40,514 nt of DNA, from positions 1 through 40,514 of IMG/VR virus record IMGVR_UViG_3300046513_000272; one strand, given 5' to 3'. Under the pieces are notes generated by a model. The model saw nothing but the letters and a program-made list of their open reading frames with translations, had not been told where the DNA came from and made no database searches. This document shows, piece after piece, positions 7,757 to 17,105 of this stretch. Origin of the DNA: a virus. Within the stretch, counting starts at the first letter, position 1. The number at the start of each line of letters is the position of its first letter. The position numbers and the translations under genes are program-made.

Positions 7757-8162
7757 CGGTCCGCGCGCGGGCAGCCGCGCCTACCTGGCTCTCCAGTTCC
7801 TGCTCCAGGTCGGTCCGCTCGATACCAAAGACTGGATGAACCACACGTCCGTCAGCAAGTCGGCCGTGAAGTTCGATCGCGAAGTGACCGGCCCTCTCAC
7901 GCGCTGGAAGCTGGTCGACGTCAACGAGTCTGGCGTCTTCTGCATCGCGCAGGCCGGCCGCGACTTCCTCGACGAGCGCGAGCCTGAGCCGGCCGAGCAG
8001 GAGGCTGTCAGCGGCCGCTACGTTCACCCGATCCAACAGCTGTCGGCACGTCATCGTCCCCAGCGCCCCCTGCGCCCTGGCGCCTTCGACTATCGGGACA
8101 TTCCATCCCGCTGCGCGAACGTCAGCGTGCCGTACAAAAGCAGCATCAAAGCGGAGAACTGA
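7749..8162 (+). CDS. unknown phage protein between YmfL-like gene and primase
   Basis: This 137-aa protein starts at ATG 7749 with GGAGG at good spacing, and its stop overlaps the next ATG as TGATG. The N-terminal 75 residues look like a winged helix: '[20 protein letters not shown]', '[20 protein letters not shown]', then a '[13 protein letters not shown]' wing. A role in replication control or loading is possible given the coupling to the primase-helicase. Not a named family to my knowledge. Confidence 0.65.
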
Positions 8163-11100
8163 TGAGCAGTAAGGAACAAGTCGTCTTGCAAATGCTCGAG
8201 TACGGGCTGCCGACGCTGCCCGCAAACCACCCGATCATGAACGGCAAGTTCCAGCGCTTCGGGCCGCAGAAGAAGTGCTGGTACATCCTGCGCGAGCTGA
8301 CTCTGGCATCGGGCTCCACTGTCGTCACCGGTGCGTTCGGACGCTTCCAGGGCGAGAACCGCAACACGGTGCCGGTGAAGATCGACACCTCGAGCATGAC
8401 CGATGAGGACCGGGCCGAGTACACCCGGAAGCAACGTGCTGCCGAGAAGGCCGAGGAAGAGAAGCGCGAGCAGGCCGCACGCCTGGCAGCAGGCCGCGCC
8501 CGCGACCAGTGGCGCAAGGCCGAGGGCATCCCGCTCGTGCATCCGTACCTCACGCGCAAGCAGGTACCGGCCGAAGGGCTGCGTGTCGGGCTCGACGGTC
8601 GGCTTCTTATTCCCCTGGTGCGCGGCGGCCAGCTGCTCGGCCTGCAGAAGATCGACGCGGCCGGTGAAAAGATGCTCAACAAGGGCATGGACGCGATTGG
8701 CGTCGCGCATGTGCTCGGCAACCTGGCCGGCGCCCCGATCATCGCGGTCGGTGAGGGCTACGCGACCTGCGCCAGCGCCCGCCTGTCCCTCGCCCCTGGC
8801 TACGATCTCCCGGTCGTTGTCGCTCTCAACGCCGGCAACCTGATCCACGTCGCCAAGGCACTGCGTCAGCGTTATCCGCACGCACACCTGCTGCTGCTGG
8901 CCGACGACGACTACCTGCTGGTCGAGCGTTACGTCGAGTGTCTGCTGGAAGAGTTCAAGGTGTCCATCGAGGTGCCGATCGACGGCGCAACCCATCGCGT
9001 CACTGCCGATGATGGTGAGCAGGTTGAGGTGATGGCGCGGTGGCGTGCTGATGCCCAAGGTATTCGGTACATCGAGGCCGACGTCCGCAAGGGCCGCGTC
9101 GTTCGCACGCCCACGTTCACGAATGCCGGCGTCGCCAGCTGCCATGCAGCGGCTGCGGCCGTTGGCAACGCCTCGGTGGCCACGCCGCTGTTCGCGATCG
9201 ACAGGGCAGGGCGCAAGATCACGGATTGGAACGACCTCCACATCGAAGAAGGGCTGGACAAAGTCGCGGCGCAACTGGGGGCGTTCCTCCTCGCTGCGCA
9301 GCAGCGCAATACCGATTCTCCCGTCGAGCCCACGCAAGCGGCCGAGGGCGCCGGCGACGCCGACCCGCTGTACGACCAGGCAGTGACAGTAGTGTTGCAG
9401 CATCGCCGCGCGTCGATCTCCCTGGTGCAGCGTCACCTGCGTGTCGGGTACAACCGCGCCGCTCGCCTGCTCGAGCAGATGGAGCAGGCCGGAGTCGTGT
9501 CCGCGATGCTGTCGAACGGCGACCGTGAGCTCCTGGCGCCGGCGACAGCCGGTGCCTCCCTTTCCCTCGCTGCGCAGCAGCGCAATACCGAGTCCACCGC
9601 ATCCAACCCCGCGCAAGCGGCCGAGGCAGTGCAGCAGCCTGCGAACGTCCTCCCCTTCGCTGCGAAGCAGCGCAATATCGATTCTCCCCCTTCCCCCCAC
9701 GCGGAAGCGGCCGACGTGCAGTCGCCTGCGTCCCCCGCTCCCCCCGCTGCGGAGCAGCCGCGCGCAAGCGCGAATGAGGATGTGCCGCCGAATTTTGACG
9801 AGAGATTTGGTGAGAATGCGCCGCAAGGACGGAGCCCTGCCGGCGGCGCTTCGCGCGCGGGGGCGGGGGACGGTGGCGATGAGGACGACCAGGGCGAGAA
9901 GAAGCAGAAGGAAAAGCCCAAGAAGGTGTACGGGCGCGATCACTGGGACAAGGTCGACGATGTGCTGGAGAACTTCATCCTGGTGTACGGCGAGGACATG
10001 GTCTGGGACTGCCGGCATCGCATGCTGATGCGCCTTGCCGCCATGCGCACGATCGTGGCCAACAGTGACGTGATGAAGTTCTGGAGCGGCGACGCCCGCA
10101 AGTGGGTGCTCAAGAAAAACATCGTGTTCGACCCGAAGGAAACGCCGTCGCCGGCCGAGAGCGGCCCTACCGCCACGGTCAACCTGTTCAACGGCTGGCA
10201 GATGAGGCCCAAGAAGGGCAACTGCCTCCTGATTCGGACGCTGCTCGCGCACCTGTGCAACGGCGACGAGGAGCTGGAGACGTGGATCCTGCGCTGGCTG
10301 GCGTACCCGCTGCGGAACCCGGGCGCCAAGATGCCGACCTCGATCATCATGCACGGCGACGAGGGATCGGGCAAAAACTTCTTCTTCGAGCGCGTGGTGA
10401 AGCCGATCTACGGCGACTACGGCTACGTGATCGGCAACGACCAGCTGGAGTCGAAGTTCAACGACTGGGCCAGCATGAAGCTGTTCATGGTGGCGGACGA
10501 GGTGGTGACCAGGGCGGAACTCAAGCAGATGAAGGGCAAGCTCAAGGGCCTGATCAGTGGCGAGACCGTCATCGTCAATCCGAAGGGCATGCCTGAGCAC
10601 GTCGAGAAGAACCAGATGAATTTTGTGTTCCTCTCCAACGAGCTGCAGCCGCTGGCCCTGGACAAGACCGACCGCCGCTACCTGGTCGTGTGGACGCCGC
10701 CGGCGCTCGGCCGCGAGTTCTATGAAAGCGTCGGCGCCGAGATCGCGCAGGGCGGTATCGAGGCGTTTTACCACTTCCTGATGTACGAGCTGGACATGGG
10801 TGATTTCAACGCCCACACGAAGCCGATCTACAACGACGCCAAGGATAGCCTGATCGAAAAGAGCCTGGCGCCGGCCGAGAGGTTCTATCGCGAGTGGTCG
10901 CGCGGCTTTCTGCCGCTGCCGTTTATCACTGTCAGCGTCAACCAGCTGTACGACGCCTTCAAGGTGTGGTGTGCCCGATCGGGCGAGCCGATGTACACGT
11001 CCATGACTGCCTTCAGCCCGATGGTCGCGCGCTACGCCGGCGACGCCATGCGCAAGCACCTCATCAAGTATGACCTGGGCAGCAAGGTGAAGCAGCGCAT

Positions 11101-11233
11101 GGTGTTCCTCGTCGGCGACCAGCCGCCGGGCAAGTCCCTGGCCGAATGGGCCGAAGGATCGAGCGCCCTTTTCGAGTCAGAGCTGCGGGCTTATCGCAGC
11201 CGATATGGAGCCAATGTGGATGGTGAGCATTAA
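8162..11233 (+). CDS. primase-helicase: Toprim domain, inserted FtsK-gamma-like winged helix, SF3/D5-like helicase
   Basis: This 1023-aa replication protein has several modules. Residues 1-190 include a charged helix ([20 protein letters not shown]). The Toprim primase core shows [10 protein letters not shown] (~196), LLADDDY (~245) and DWNDLH (~354). Residues ~400-460 form a winged helix with '[20 protein letters not shown]', '[20 protein letters not shown]' and a trailing NGDRELL, matching the FtsK gamma domain that reads KOPS sites. A Pro/Ala-rich linker with repeats follows. The C-terminal helicase has Walker A GDEGSGKN (~731-738) and Walker B LFMVADEV (~775), as in DUF5906/P4 alpha-like proteins. 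It would prime and unwind phage DNA, probably at the iterons just downstream. Confidence 0.88.
9291..9714 (+). repeat. three ~58-nt imperfect coding repeats flanking the FtsK-gamma-like domain
   Basis: Copies at 9291-9347, 9567-9626 and 9657-9714 share the start TCGCTGCGCAGCAGCGCAAT and the end CGCAAGCGGCCGAGG, and encode '[10 protein letters not shown]...QAAE' units. A decayed fourth copy spans about 9738-9777. Copy 1 precedes and copies 2-3 follow the winged-helix segment, as if the domain had been inserted into, or flanked by, a duplicated linker. Confidence 0.75.
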
Positions 11234-13060: not shown

Positions 13061-13071
13061 AGGGTGAGGTG

Positions 13072-13827
13072 ATGGCGAAGGTACACGTTCAGGGCTTGCC
13101 GGAGCTGCTCCGCAACATGAGCGACGTGCAGCGCAAGCATGCCCCGTTCGCAGTCGCGATGGCCCTGACGAAAACAGCGCAGAGGGCGCAAGCAGGTGTG
13201 CTGGACGTGATGCGCCAACGGTTCGACCGGCCCACTCCGTACACGCTCAACAGCCTGCGCGTCGTGCCTGCGAAGAAGTCCGACACGCAGCCCTTTGCGA
13301 AGGTGTACTTCAAGGACGATGCTTTCAAGGGGACACCTGCGAGCAAGTTTCTCACGCCTGAGGTCTACGGCGGCGCCCGGGGTGCAAAGCGCTTCGAGAG
13401 GGCGCTCATCGGCAAAGGGCTCATGCGTAGTGGTCAGTTCGCGGTCCCGGCCTCGGGTGCGCAGCTCGATGCGTACGGTAACGTCAGGCGTGCACAGATC
13501 GTCCAGATCCTATCGGCGCTGCGTGCGTTCGGCGAGCAGGGCTACATGGCCAACCGCACGAACAGCAAGCGCAGCCAACGCAAGGGCAGGGCGGCGCAAT
13601 ACTTCGTCGCCACGATGGACGGTGTCGAAGGCATTTGGCAGCGCAAACAGTTCGGGCATGGCGAGGGCATCCGGCCCGTCTTCGTGTTCACTGGCGGCGC
13701 ACCGCACTATCGTGTGCGCGTGCCCTTCGACAAGATCGTCGAGAACGTCGCCCGCGCTCGATTCGTCGGCGAGTTCAAGTCCGCGATGGACTATGCGCTG
13801 CAGAGAGCAGCGACCCCGCGGAAGTAG
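13072..13827 (+). CDS. phage structural protein, possibly minor tail protein Z-like
   Basis: This 251-aa protein starts at ATG 13072 with AGGG seven bases upstream. It is basic, begins MAKVHVQGLPELLRNMSDVQ, and continues with AMALTKTAQRAQAGVLDVMR, like the N-terminal helices of minor tail protein Z or neck-type proteins that coat DNA or join head and tail. First gene of the late operon, before the terminase, an unusual place for a tail gene. The assignment is tentative. Confidence 0.5.
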   Translation: MAKVHVQGLPELLRNMSDVQRKHAPFAVAMALTKTAQRAQAGVLDVMRQRFDRPTPYTLNSLRVVPAKKSDTQPFAKVYFKDDAFKGTPASKFLTPEVYGGARGAKRFERALIGKGLMRSGQFAVPASGAQLDAYGNVRRAQIVQILSALRAFGEQGYMANRTNSKRSQRKGRAAQYFVATMDGVEGIWQRKQFGHGEGIRPVFVFTGGAPHYRVRVPFDKIVENVARARFVGEFKSAMDYALQRAATPRK

Positions 13828-13901: not shown

Positions 13902-14333
13902 ATGAGCACGACAACCATCAAGTACTTCGCCTTCGCCCATCTGCCGGCGCACCTGCAGCTTGTCAGCAAGCCGATTGGCGAGCTGGCCCACCAGTTCGAG
14001 CAGCAGCTGCCTGACGGTCCCGAGAAATCGACCGGCATGCGCAAGCTGCTGGAGGCGAAGGACTGCTTTGTGCGCGCTGCCCTCGAGGCGCCGAAGCAGG
14101 CTGCAGCCGGTGCCCTGCAGCCGCATCAGCAGCGCGTCGTCGACGAGAAGCGCGACCTGGACGAGAAGCTGGAGAAGCTCGTCGCCTTCACGCGCTCCCC
14201 GACTTTCGCCGACCTCGACAGTGGCGAGCGCAACCGCCTCGACCAGCAGGCCGCCACGATGGCGATGTACTCCGACATCCTCGGTGATCGCATCGCCGCC
14301 TTCTCGCCGGCCGGCGAGGGCACCGCAGCCTGA
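13902..14333 (+). CDS. putative anti-CBASS cyclic-nucleotide sponge: Acb2/Tad1-like hairpin plus crAss001_48-like half
   Basis: This 143-aa protein looks bipartite. Residues ~7-60 (KYFAFAHLPAHLQLVSKPIG ... 'QQLPDGPEKSTGMRKLLEAK' then DCFVRAAL) match the pattern of the Acb2/Tad1 helical-hairpin family, small phage proteins that sequester CBASS cyclic dinucleotides and trinucleotides. Residues ~72-135 ('QPHQQRVVDEKRDLDEKLEK' ... 'ATMAMYSDILGDRIAAF') resemble the crAss001_48-related family. Both halves are helical. It sits between structural genes ahead of the terminase, a common place for anti-defence genes. Recognition is from memory of sequence patterns, so moderate confidence. Confidence 0.58.
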   Translation: MSTTTIKYFAFAHLPAHLQLVSKPIGELAHQFEQQLPDGPEKSTGMRKLLEAKDCFVRAALEAPKQAAAGALQPHQQRVVDEKRDLDEKLEKLVAFTRSPTFADLDSGERNRLDQQAATMAMYSDILGDRIAAFSPAGEGTAA

Positions 14334-14487
14334 CGGTCCACAGCCCGGCCGTCTAGGCCAGCCCCGCCCCGCCTGCGGTCCTCGCCAGCCCGGGCAGCCT
14401 CCCGAATTTCCAGGGTCCTTCCCGGGGGTGTCGGTTGACGGGTAATTCGAGCCACGACATTCGTGTCGTCACAAACTTTTAAAGGGG

Positions 14488-14533
14488 TAGTCACCCGGTA
14501 GTCAGTAGTCAGTAGTCAGCATAAGGGTAGTCA
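14488..14533 (+). repeat. five TAGTCA repeats upstream of terminase small subunit, candidate cos/TerS-binding region
   Basis: TAGTCA begins at 14488, 14499, 14506, 14513 and 14528, spaced 11, 7, 7 and 15 bp. The repeats fill the end of a 200-bp non-coding gap directly before the terminase small-subunit start at 14535. In lambdoid phages, terminase-binding repeats of the cos site lie next to this gene. Cleavage position not identifiable. Confidence 0.5.
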
Positions 14534-14534
14534 C

Positions 14535-15116
14535 ATGGCTTTGATGGGATACCGCGAATACTCGCGGCACGCGGGCGTCACGCTGCGCGCAGTGCAAAAG
14601 GCGATCGAGGCCGGCCACATCAAAGTCCAGGAAGGCAAGAAGATCGACTCCGACCAGGCGGACCGCGACTGGCGCAACAGCGGCGAGATCCAGCGCAGCA
14701 TCGTCAGCATCACGGAGACGGAGAGGCGCCCCGCGCCCTCGGCTGCTGTTCGCAACGGTGGTGCCCGGGGCGACGGGGACCTGGTCGATGATGACCCCGC
14801 CGAGGGGGAGGGAGATGCTACGACTCGCGAATACCGCGCGCACCGCGCCGATCGCGAGAAGTACAGCGCGCTGAAGCAGAAGCTCGAATACGAGCAGCTG
14901 GCCGGCGAGCTGATCCCTGTCGAGGACGCCAAGCGCATTGCGTCGACCACCTTCCGCGGCATCCGCGATTCGGTCCTCAACGTGCCGGCGCGCTTGAAGG
15001 ACCAGCTGGCGGCGCTCGACGATCCGCACGCGTGCGAGCGCCTGGTGGAGTCGGCCCTCGCGGCGGCGCTGGCCAGCATCGACATCGGCAAACTGCTGCA
15101 GGAACAGGACGACTAG
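14535..15116 (+). CDS. terminase small subunit (gpNu1-like)
   Basis: This 193-aa protein starts at ATG 14535 (AAGGG eight bases upstream). The N-terminal winged-helix DNA-binding region reads 'GYREYSRHAGVTLRAVQKAI' then EAGHIKVQEGKKIDSDQADR, typical of gpNu1-type terminase small subunits that recognise cos. An acidic linker is followed by a long helix 'REYRAHRADREKYSALKQKL' and the dimerisation part with GELIPVEDAKRIASTTFRGI. It abuts the large-subunit gene (TAG then ATG). Confidence 0.85.
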   Translation: MALMGYREYSRHAGVTLRAVQKAIEAGHIKVQEGKKIDSDQADRDWRNSGEIQRSIVSITETERRPAPSAAVRNGGARGDGDLVDDDPAEGEGDATTREYRAHRADREKYSALKQKLEYEQLAGELIPVEDAKRIASTTFRGIRDSVLNVPARLKDQLAALDDPHACERLVESALAAALASIDIGKLLQEQDD

Positions 15117-17105
15117 ATGGGTGCCGTCGACGAATTCATCCGCTCGATCACGGAAGCGATCCGGCCCGACAGCCGGATACCGATCGCGGAGTGGGCGGAA
15201 ACCTACCGCGTGCTGCCGCCGGACACGCCGGAGCCGGGACCGTGGCGCAACAGCCGGACCCCGTACCTCATCGGCATCATGGACGCGCTGTCGCCCGACA
15301 GCCCGTATCGCGAGGTCTACCTGAAGAAGGGCCACCAGCTCGGCGGCTCTGCCCTGGGCGAGAACTTCATCGGCCACGCGATCACCTCGGCGGCCGGCAA
15401 CATCCTGGCCGTGTTCGCGACCCTTGAGGACGCCGAGAAGTGGGAGCTCTCTCGCTTCGAGCCCATGCGGCTCTCGACGGGAGAACTGAAGAAGCGGATC
15501 CGCGACGCGAACGTCAAGGGGTCCGACAACACGAAGCGCCGCAAGAAGTTCCCCGGCGGCTTCATGCAGCTGATCGGTGCGAACCGGCCTGGAGGCCTGA
15601 AGTCCTCGACGATGCGCTACGTGTTGCTCGAGGAGATGGACGAGTACGCCGGCGACATCGGCAACCAGGGCAGCCCGGAGACCCTGGCAAAAAAGCGGAC
15701 GTCGAACTTTGGCCGCAAGGCGCGGATCTTCGGCAACAGCACGCCGACGATCGTCGGCGCCTCGCCGATCGACCGCAACTACCTCCGGGGCGACCAGCAG
15801 AAGTACATGGTCGCCTGCCCGTGCTGCGGCACGCGTCAGTTCTTCAAGTGGTCGCAGATGAAGTGGCCGGAGGGCGAGCCTGAGAAGGTCCGCTACCTCT
15901 GCAACGACTGCGGCGTGCTCAGCACCGAAGCCGAATGGAAGACGCGTGGCTACGAGGGCGCGTACTGGCAGCCGACCGCCAAGGGCGAGCCTGGCGTGGC
16001 CAGCTTCCACTTGCCGTCATTGTATGCGCCGCTCGGATGGCGCCCGTGGGCCGAGCTGGCAGGCGACTGGATCGCTGCGCAGAAGGACCCTGTATTACTG
16101 AAGGCCTTCATCAACAATGAACTGGCCGAATGCTGGGAGGACTTGAGCGGCCAGGTGAAGGGTGCTGAGATCGCGAAGCGCCGCGAGACCTTCCAGCTGC
16201 GCACGATCCCGCAGGGGTGTCTTGCCCTGGTCATGTCGGTCGACGTTCAGGGCAACCGCCTGGAGTACCAGATCCTGGGCTGCGGCCGCAACAAGAAGCA
16301 CTGGGTCATCGACTACGGGATCATCGACGGTGACCCGGCCAAGGATGATGTGTGGGCCCGCCTGACGACACTGCGCGAGCGTCCGCTGGTGAACAGCTTC
16401 GGCGTCCCGATGCGTGTGCAGACGTGTGCAATCGACTCCGGTGGCCACCATACGCACGAGGTGTACCTGTACGCTAGGCTGTACCGGCATGCAGGCGTGT
16501 TTGCCATCAAGGGCCAAGGCGCCGCCAGCAAGCCGATCATCGGCCGGCCGGTGACGATGGATGTGAACCACAAGGGGCGGACGATTAAGGGCGGCGTGCA
16601 GCTCTGGCATGTGGGCACGCACACGGCGAAGCAGCTGCTGTTCGGCTACATCGCCTCCGACGAAGAGGCAGTGCCGGCGGACCGCTTCATCCGCTTCCCT
16701 GCAGGCCTCGCCGACGACTACTTCGAGCAGCTGACCGCCGAGGTGTATGACGCCGGAAAGAACGACTACCGCAAGCTGCCCGGCCGCCGCAATGAAGTCA
16801 TCGACCTGTTCGTGTACGGCTTCGCGGCAGCGTATCACCCACTGCTGCGCCTGGACACAATGCGGGATTCCGACTGGGCCCAGCTGGAGAGCGTGGTCGA
16901 GCCGGTCAACGGTGACCTGTTCAGGCAACCGCTGCCAAGCCCGGATGGGCCGGCACCTGCGACTGAGGCGGAAGCGTCGCCAGTAGCGGACGCGGAACTG
17001 CTACCGGCGACCGTAGCTCCACCACCGCCGAGCGTACCGCCGACGCAACCTCAACAACCGCCCGAAGACGACTGGCTCTCGGGCACTGATAATTGGCTGG
17101 ATTGA
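15117..17105 (+). CDS. terminase large subunit (GpA family ATPase-nuclease)
   Basis: This 662-aa packaging motor protein cuts the genome and drives it into the procapsid. The GpA-family start 'VLPPDTPEPGPWRNSRTPYL' is followed by a deviant Walker A KKGHQLGGSALGEN (~64-77), like lambda gpA, and the Walker B region VLLEEMDEY (~170). Two CxxC pairs (CPCCG ~234 and CNDCG ~261) suggest a zinc knuckle. The C-terminal nuclease half has YQILGCGRNKKHWVIDYGII and CAIDSGGHHTHEVY. The tail is Pro/Ala-rich. Length fits the family. An 18-bp palindrome copy (16415-16432) lies within. Confidence 0.95.
   Translation: MGAVDEFIRSITEAIRPDSRIPIAEWAETYRVLPPDTPEPGPWRNSRTPYLIGIMDALSPDSPYREVYLKKGHQLGGSALGENFIGHAITSAAGNILAVFATLEDAEKWELSRFEPMRLSTGELKKRIRDANVKGSDNTKRRKKFPGGFMQLIGANRPGGLKSSTMRYVLLEEMDEYAGDIGNQGSPETLAKKRTSNFGRKARIFGNSTPTIVGASPIDRNYLRGDQQKYMVACPCCGTRQFFKWSQMKWPEGEPEKVRYLCNDCGVLSTEAEWKTRGYEGAYWQPTAKGEPGVASFHLPSLYAPLGWRPWAELAGDWIAAQKDPVLLKAFINNELAECWEDLSGQVKGAEIAKRRETFQLRTIPQGCLALVMSVDVQGNRLEYQILGCGRNKKHWVIDYGIIDGDPAKDDVWARLTTLRERPLVNSFGVPMRVQTCAIDSGGHHTHEVYLYARLYRHAGVFAIKGQGAASKPIIGRPVTMDVNHKGRTIKGGVQLWHVGTHTAKQLLFGYIASDEEAVPADRFIRFPAGLADDYFEQLTAEVYDAGKNDYRKLPGRRNEVIDLFVYGFAAAYHPLLRLDTMRDSDWAQLESVVEPVNGDLFRQPLPSPDGPAPATEAEASPVADAELLPATVAPPPPSVPPTQPQQPPEDDWLSGTDNWLD
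16415..16432. repeat. dispersed 18-bp palindrome, copy 3
   Basis: TGTGCAGACGTGTGCAAT differs from the consensus at 3 of 18 positions, within terL coding sequence. Confidence 0.5.

Follow-up and report, generated by a model that had tools for sequence, protein, structure and literature searches.

The gene at positions 13902-14333 of the window, the whole 40,514-nucleotide stretch analysed here, probably codes for a phage counter-defence protein of modular build, whose role would be to sequester nucleotide immune signals. Its first half, called the N module, is distantly homologous to the Acb2/Tad1 hairpin; it belongs to a sister family (PHROG 1761/5120) and is not an accepted member of the Pfam family PF24729. 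Its second half is a crAss001_48 domain (PF21825). The idea of a two-domain sponge, put forward in a first-pass annotation of the DNA, stands as the best explanation of this arrangement, with ligand binding as a prediction. Of main interest are the finding that PF21825 is common to three sponge-type families and the unannotated domains tied to these families.

A two-domain gene upstream of the terminase genes

The gene lies exactly where the first-pass annotation had placed it and consists of a single plus-strand reading frame whose product is predicted to fold into two helical hairpins. The features of the gene and its surroundings are as follows.

13902-14333, plus strand: whole gene, an ORF with an ATG start encoding a 143-residue protein (N module and PF21825), the same architecture being found in 16 distinct ORFs
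13902-14087, plus strand: residues 1-62, forming the N module, a hairpin distantly related to that of Acb2/Tad1 (PHROG 1761/5120, profiles, structural model)
14088-14120, plus strand: linker, residues 63-73, of low model confidence (AlphaFold2; linker lengths in homologs)
14121-14297, plus strand: crAss001_48 domain PF21825, residues 74-132, with helices at residues 74-97, 100-103 and 107-132 (Pfam)
13069-13827: upstream ORF with no Pfam match
14535-15116, plus strand: downstream ORF in the position of a small terminase subunit, with no firm Pfam match
15117-17105, plus strand: large terminase GpA with ATPase and nuclease domains (PF05876, E 9.6e-70; PF20454, E 3.2e-79)

The gene is under purifying selection, as dN falls well below dS in comparisons with full-length homologs (dN/dS pairs of 0.13/0.49, 0.18/0.93 and 0.21/0.67). 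This result, along with G+C fractions of 0.70, 0.43 and 0.87 at codon positions 1, 2 and 3 of the reading frame, establishes that 13902-14333 is a real, selected gene. Furthermore, the fusion is not an artefact, because both domains are carried by 16 distinct ORFs from IMG/VR and one bacterial metagenome-assembled genome, with linkers of 7-35 residues, although this count is inflated by the way in which loci were fetched.

The phage represented by the window looks temperate and tailed, has a lambda-type portal, and carries its terminase genes directly downstream of 13902-14333. The earlier description of the gene as lying between structural genes holds loosely: the terminase side (14535-15116 and 15117-17105) follows it, and on the upstream side the ORF at 13069-13827 lacks a Pfam match. 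Neither a sigma-70 promoter nor a terminator was recognised near the gene, no other known sponge module was found elsewhere in the window, and a defence-system scan with PADLOC gave only a chance match (E 0.02). Short GTAGTCA repeats occupy positions 14484-14534, just before the ORF that begins at 14535. At the left end of the window, a plus-strand tRNA-Met gene (168-246) possibly marks an integration site, and the plus-strand ORF at 8162-11233 encodes a 1023-residue protein with an FtsK gamma (DNA-recognition) domain and a DUF5906/VapE-like helicase domain.

The location directly upstream of the terminase genes is what would be expected of an ordinary packaging or head-module gene, encoding a scaffolding protein, for instance, or a small terminase-associated one. 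However, homologs occur in varied places, often adjoining Tad2 or Acb4 genes, and the N module is found alone in phages of very different types. We regard a packaging function as highly improbable.

Relation of the N module to the Acb2 hairpin

Residues 1-63 match PHROG 1761 (E 2.8e-32) and PHROG 5120 (E 1.3e-23), both of which lack an assigned function, and match no Pfam family, PF24729 included, at an E-value of 10. In most cases the N module makes up an entire protein of 62-68 residues. It occurs in phages that infect Acinetobacter, Vibrio, Erwinia, Mycobacterium, Gordonia, Brevibacterium and other hosts, and it is also present in bacterial genomes of many phyla. The view that both halves are usually found alone is accurate for the N module but overlooks how often crAss001_48 forms the C-terminus of other proteins, among them members of proven sponge families. 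A helix with the sequence RKLLEAKDCFVR (residues 47-58) is nearly invariant across N modules, in part through search bias, because LEAKDCFV served as a search pattern; R47, K48 and R58 lie outside that pattern. Position 11 is usually aromatic, with Y in 55% of members and F in 28%. The motif quoted in the first-pass annotation is indeed present in residues 1-63, but it is a signature of the sister family and not of Acb2. A weak match to Gp22 (8jaj) among PDB sequences (E 0.039) was taken as chance.

The existing Pfam model for Acb2, PF24729 (Acb2_Tad1_hairpin), accepts no N-module protein at its gathering cut-off of 27 bits. The best-scoring relative reaches 14.6 bits, and divergent N-module members match PF24729 directly but weakly (E 0.039 and 0.13) in the expected columns. 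True members over the cut-off include T4 Vs.4 (that is, Acb2; 71.5 bits) and prophage proteins. A PF24729-type family of 87 proteins was built from one of these prophage proteins (L179), with all N modules left out. Its profile matches 121 of 137 N-module proteins and, among the decoys, none of 137 reversed sequences and one of 137 shuffled ones; in the reverse search the N-module profile matches 82 of the 87 PF24729-type proteins. The individual scores are modest (medians of 7.8 and 11 bits), and the weight of the reciprocal result comes from its consistency and controls rather than from these scores. A less clean control is that the N-module profile scored 42 reversed sequences weakly, the best at 13.7 bits, whereas the best true relative reached 20.2 bits.

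Profile-profile comparison with hhalign gives a similar result. The N module and the PF24729-type family align with probabilities of 86.7% and 83.7% in the two directions, over 38 of 56 columns and with the last helix turns left out. The PF24729-type family in turn aligns with T4 Acb2 (Vs.4) at 96%, and reversed controls do not exceed 2.4% in either case. Set directly against T4 Acb2, the N module reaches 0.2%, which amounts to no detectable similarity. The link between the two is therefore transitive, with PF24729-type proteins as the connecting intermediates.

Co-occurrence with true Acb2 is unusable as evidence, because searches of the 28 phage records and 18 bacterial genomes that carry N modules recovered no PF24729 gene over the cut-off, T4 as the positive control aside; one genome (G016) holds a sub-threshold match of 16.7 bits. 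Taken together, profiles, hhalign and the structural searches described below, each with decoys where applicable, detect homology of the N module to PF24729 members at the level of sister families. The first-pass annotation had named the joint absence of profile support for Acb2/Tad1 and of nucleotide binding as what would count against it; profile support was found with family-built profiles and hhalign, controlled by decoys. Its assignment of the first half to the Acb2/Tad1 type is upheld as relatedness and fails as membership, since the PF24729 model itself rejects the domain.

Also consistent with this relationship is the predicted structure. AlphaFold2, supplied with 57 aligned homologs, models the whole protein as a pair of helical hairpins with a low-confidence linker between them (mean pLDDT 89.3), and the relative placement of the hairpins is not fixed, given a pTM of 0.49. 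Modelled alone (pLDDT 93.8), the N module has a short helix at residues 4-9 and long antiparallel helices at 16-35 and 40-62. This prediction fits the published layout of the Acb2 protomer, a short helix followed by two long antiparallel helices (PMC12043709). The model is all-helical, and the N-terminal beta-sheet that precedes the two long helices in Tad1 is absent. Past the family's own members, a Foldseek search of viral models returns named matches that are largely ‘Acb2/Tad1 hairpin domain-containing protein’, many of them below rank 10; such proteins stand at rank 7 (E 0.09, probability 1.00, TM 0.71/0.64) and rank 10 (probability 0.99, TM 0.73/0.71). Foldseek also uses sequence, and thus this result cannot count as wholly independent of the profiles. 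Fold searches of the PDB recovered mostly generic helical bundles and no Acb2 chain, and are uninformative because the query is a small helical hairpin.

The alignment further points to a candidate nucleotide pocket. In T4 Acb2, the binding of cyclic dinucleotides is disrupted in the Y8A mutant, and F82 makes stacking contacts with the bases (PMC12657218). An F-x-Y-x-x-P motif aligns T4 Acb2 Y8 with N-module position 11, which is aromatic in more than 80% of members, and by analogy this position and the RKLLEAKDCFVR helix may form the pocket. Like the N module, Acb2 (T4 Vs.4, PaMx33/PaMx41; PF24729) is a domain of roughly 60 residues with one short and two long antiparallel helices; the two share an aromatic residue at the column of the nucleotide-contacting tyrosine and a remote homology that runs through PF24729-type proteins. 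Unlike Acb2, the N module fails PF24729, has a different invariant core (RKLLEAKDCFVR) and has a second domain fused behind it, and its binding of a ligand is predicted.

These differences could instead mean that the N module is kin to the Acb2 hairpin but no longer sequesters nucleotides. The invariant RKLLEAKDCFVR helix would then recognise a protein of the host or phage, or a nucleic acid, and the gene product would be an accessory regulator that is among counter-defence genes by chance. Constraint on the helix is much stronger than in PF24729 proteins, the core differs, PF24729 rejects the domain and many bacterial genomes contain it, all of which would suit a regulator. However, the conservation of the helix is partly the product of selecting sequences by the LEAKDCFV pattern, and a fusion to an RyR domain and the adjacency to Tad2 and Acb4, or the fusion partners shared with them, are hard to explain for an unrelated regulator. 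We consider this reading unlikely, and favour sequestration.

Fusion partners of the crAss001_48 domain

The second half had been described as crAss001_48-related, and the Pfam profile check proposed for it bears this out. Residues 74-132 score 62.5 bits against PF21825 (E 3.5e-17), far enough above the gathering cut-off of 24.8 bits to make the domain a clear member of a family with no recorded function. A search of PDB sequences with the PF21825 profile gave no credible match. The possibility that the protein comprises two Acb2-type hairpins was rejected at the sequence level, because PF21825 is unrelated to either the Acb2 hairpin or the N module (0.9% or less in profile-profile comparisons).

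The loci fetched contain 88 distinct PF21825 proteins, 35 without a partner domain and 53 with one. When the 53 two-domain proteins were compared with Pfam, the only other families found were PF13876 (12 proteins), which is the Acb4 sponge family (PMC11722364), and PF11195 (3 proteins), which is Tad2-like (PMC13299392). As a control, 138 neighbouring ORFs from the same loci represent 28 Pfam families, among which, in those listed, PF13876 appears twice and PF11195 does not appear. Sponge families thus account for 15 of 15 fused matches and 2 of about 33 neighbouring ones (Fisher p ~1e-10), counts that are not independent, as the phages are related: the 12 Acb4 fusions collapse to 8 groups at 70% identity, and 4 of the 12 were fetched through the window protein itself.

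A different reading of these data is that PF21825 is a general tail, serving stability, virion packaging or localisation on any small accessory protein, and that its link to sponges reflects how common Acb4 and Tad2 are. This reading concerns the second half, and the first half could be a sponge either way. It is in keeping with the 35 of 88 PF21825 proteins that lack a partner and the roughly 20 fusions whose partners have no Pfam family. Nearly identical PF21825 copies also lie behind three different N-terminal domains, and shuffling of domains at the DNA level is evidently frequent, as a general tail would allow. However, every fused partner with a Pfam name is a sponge, whereas the neighbours span 28 families with one sponge family among them, and fusions to Tad2, Acb4 or RyR exist for several of the unnamed partners as well. 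A general tail is the less probable reading, and we prefer an association of PF21825 with sponges. No report of PF21825 paired with sponges was found in the literature searched, which covered few subscription papers, and the novelty of the fusion network is not certain.

A fusion network of possibly exchangeable modules

The association extends to neighbouring genes and to further fusions. In 12 of 16 distinct loci, the N-PF21825 gene has a Tad2 or Acb4 gene as its adjoining module-bearing gene, at a distance of about 60 bases or less. The N module is also fused to an RyR domain (PF02026) in one locus (L021) and, elsewhere, to an unannotated ‘VDRFLWKLP’ domain. RyR proteins of phages sequester Thoeris signals or break them down (PMC13232231). 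Single proteins can combine several sponges: Pfam confirms Tad2, Acb4 (PF13876) and PF21825 in one 428-residue phage protein (L360:2471-3757), Tad2-like and Acb4 domains in another (L012:4429-5421), and RyR in L432. In Acinetobacter higginsii (L136:6001-7610), an N-module gene is followed by a gene with two PF13876 stretches, and an RyR-type gene lies about 4 kb further on.

Several unannotated domains, for which we coined the names FIGTK, RGRIVWY, VDRFLWKLP, KFRKKP and WDFEAF after their motifs, take part in the same fusions. FIGTK (RFIGTKxxxAxxMTRxxYNxxRGW...GYLVEY...GYVSWSP) lies N-terminal of Tad2 or PF21825 (for example, L304:2509-2715, L342:373-573 and L012:4474-4677). It is fused to Tad2 in 62 of 80 loci (L347-L426) and to PF21825 alone in 13 more. 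In two FIGTK proteins (L376:308-820 and L389:2489-2938), a different, helical-looking C-terminal tail replaces PF21825 or Tad2. RGRIVWY (PTxGRIVWY...WMPYQKxQA; L269:2323-2574, L432:2498-3136 and L007:4453-4749) stands alone in most loci; in others its fusion partner is Tad2, Acb4, RyR, PF21825 or the N module. The searches for FIGTK and RGRIVWY were seeded with unannotated partners, and their loci overlap earlier ones. A phage protein of the form KFRKKPVVIEA...ITGVKGEHYPCKPDIF carries PF21825 at its C-terminus and has a weak PGDYG match (L039:3722-4213, L311:2674-3213 and L316:2698-3201). The unannotated modules have no match in NCBIfam. They are candidate anti-signalling modules because they are part of the same fusion network, which suggests that phages build signal counter-defences from interchangeable parts.

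The known families in this network differ in fold from the N module. Acb4 (PF13876, Phage_gp49_66) can carry the same C-terminal PF21825 and is often encoded by the next gene, but its domain is a tetramer with a beta core (PMC11722364). Tad2-like proteins (PF11195) likewise share the C-terminal PF21825 and are encoded by a neighbouring gene in some loci, but the Tad2 domain has a different fold and binds gcADPR-type signals (PMC12043709). RyDEP (RyR, PF02026), which is connected to the N module only as its fusion partner in L021, also has an unrelated fold and is a cADPR-signal enzyme or sponge (PMC13232231).

If the favoured explanation is correct, the N module would oligomerise head to head, by analogy with Acb2, and its pockets, lined by aromatic residue 11 together with the invariant RKLLEAKDCFVR helix, would hold a cyclic di- or trinucleotide or else a related signal of the ADP-ribose type. 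In turn, PF21825 would join these units into larger, more avid assemblies or add a second ligand site, and the phage would thereby blunt CBASS-like or Thoeris-like signalling during infection. A broader proposal, which we hold tentatively and with less than even confidence, is that the modules form a combinatorial closed set of the Acb2-like N module, Acb4, Tad2, RyR, PF21825 and at least five unannotated domains (FIGTK, RGRIVWY, VDRFLWKLP, KFRKKP and WDFEAF). Under this proposal, PF21825 would be sponge-associated, the unannotated members would be new nucleotide-signal sponges or signal-degrading enzymes, and the window protein would be a bivalent sponge.

Should these readings be true, a widespread unannotated phage family (PHROG 1761/5120) would become a candidate Acb2-type sponge, PF21825 would become a marker for finding more counter-defence genes, and the fusion network would name specific unannotated domains as candidates. 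Multi-sponge proteins such as that of L360 (Tad2, Acb4 and PF21825) would mean that several signalling systems are countered by one gene, and it would become directly testable how phages broaden or shift the set of signals that they neutralise.
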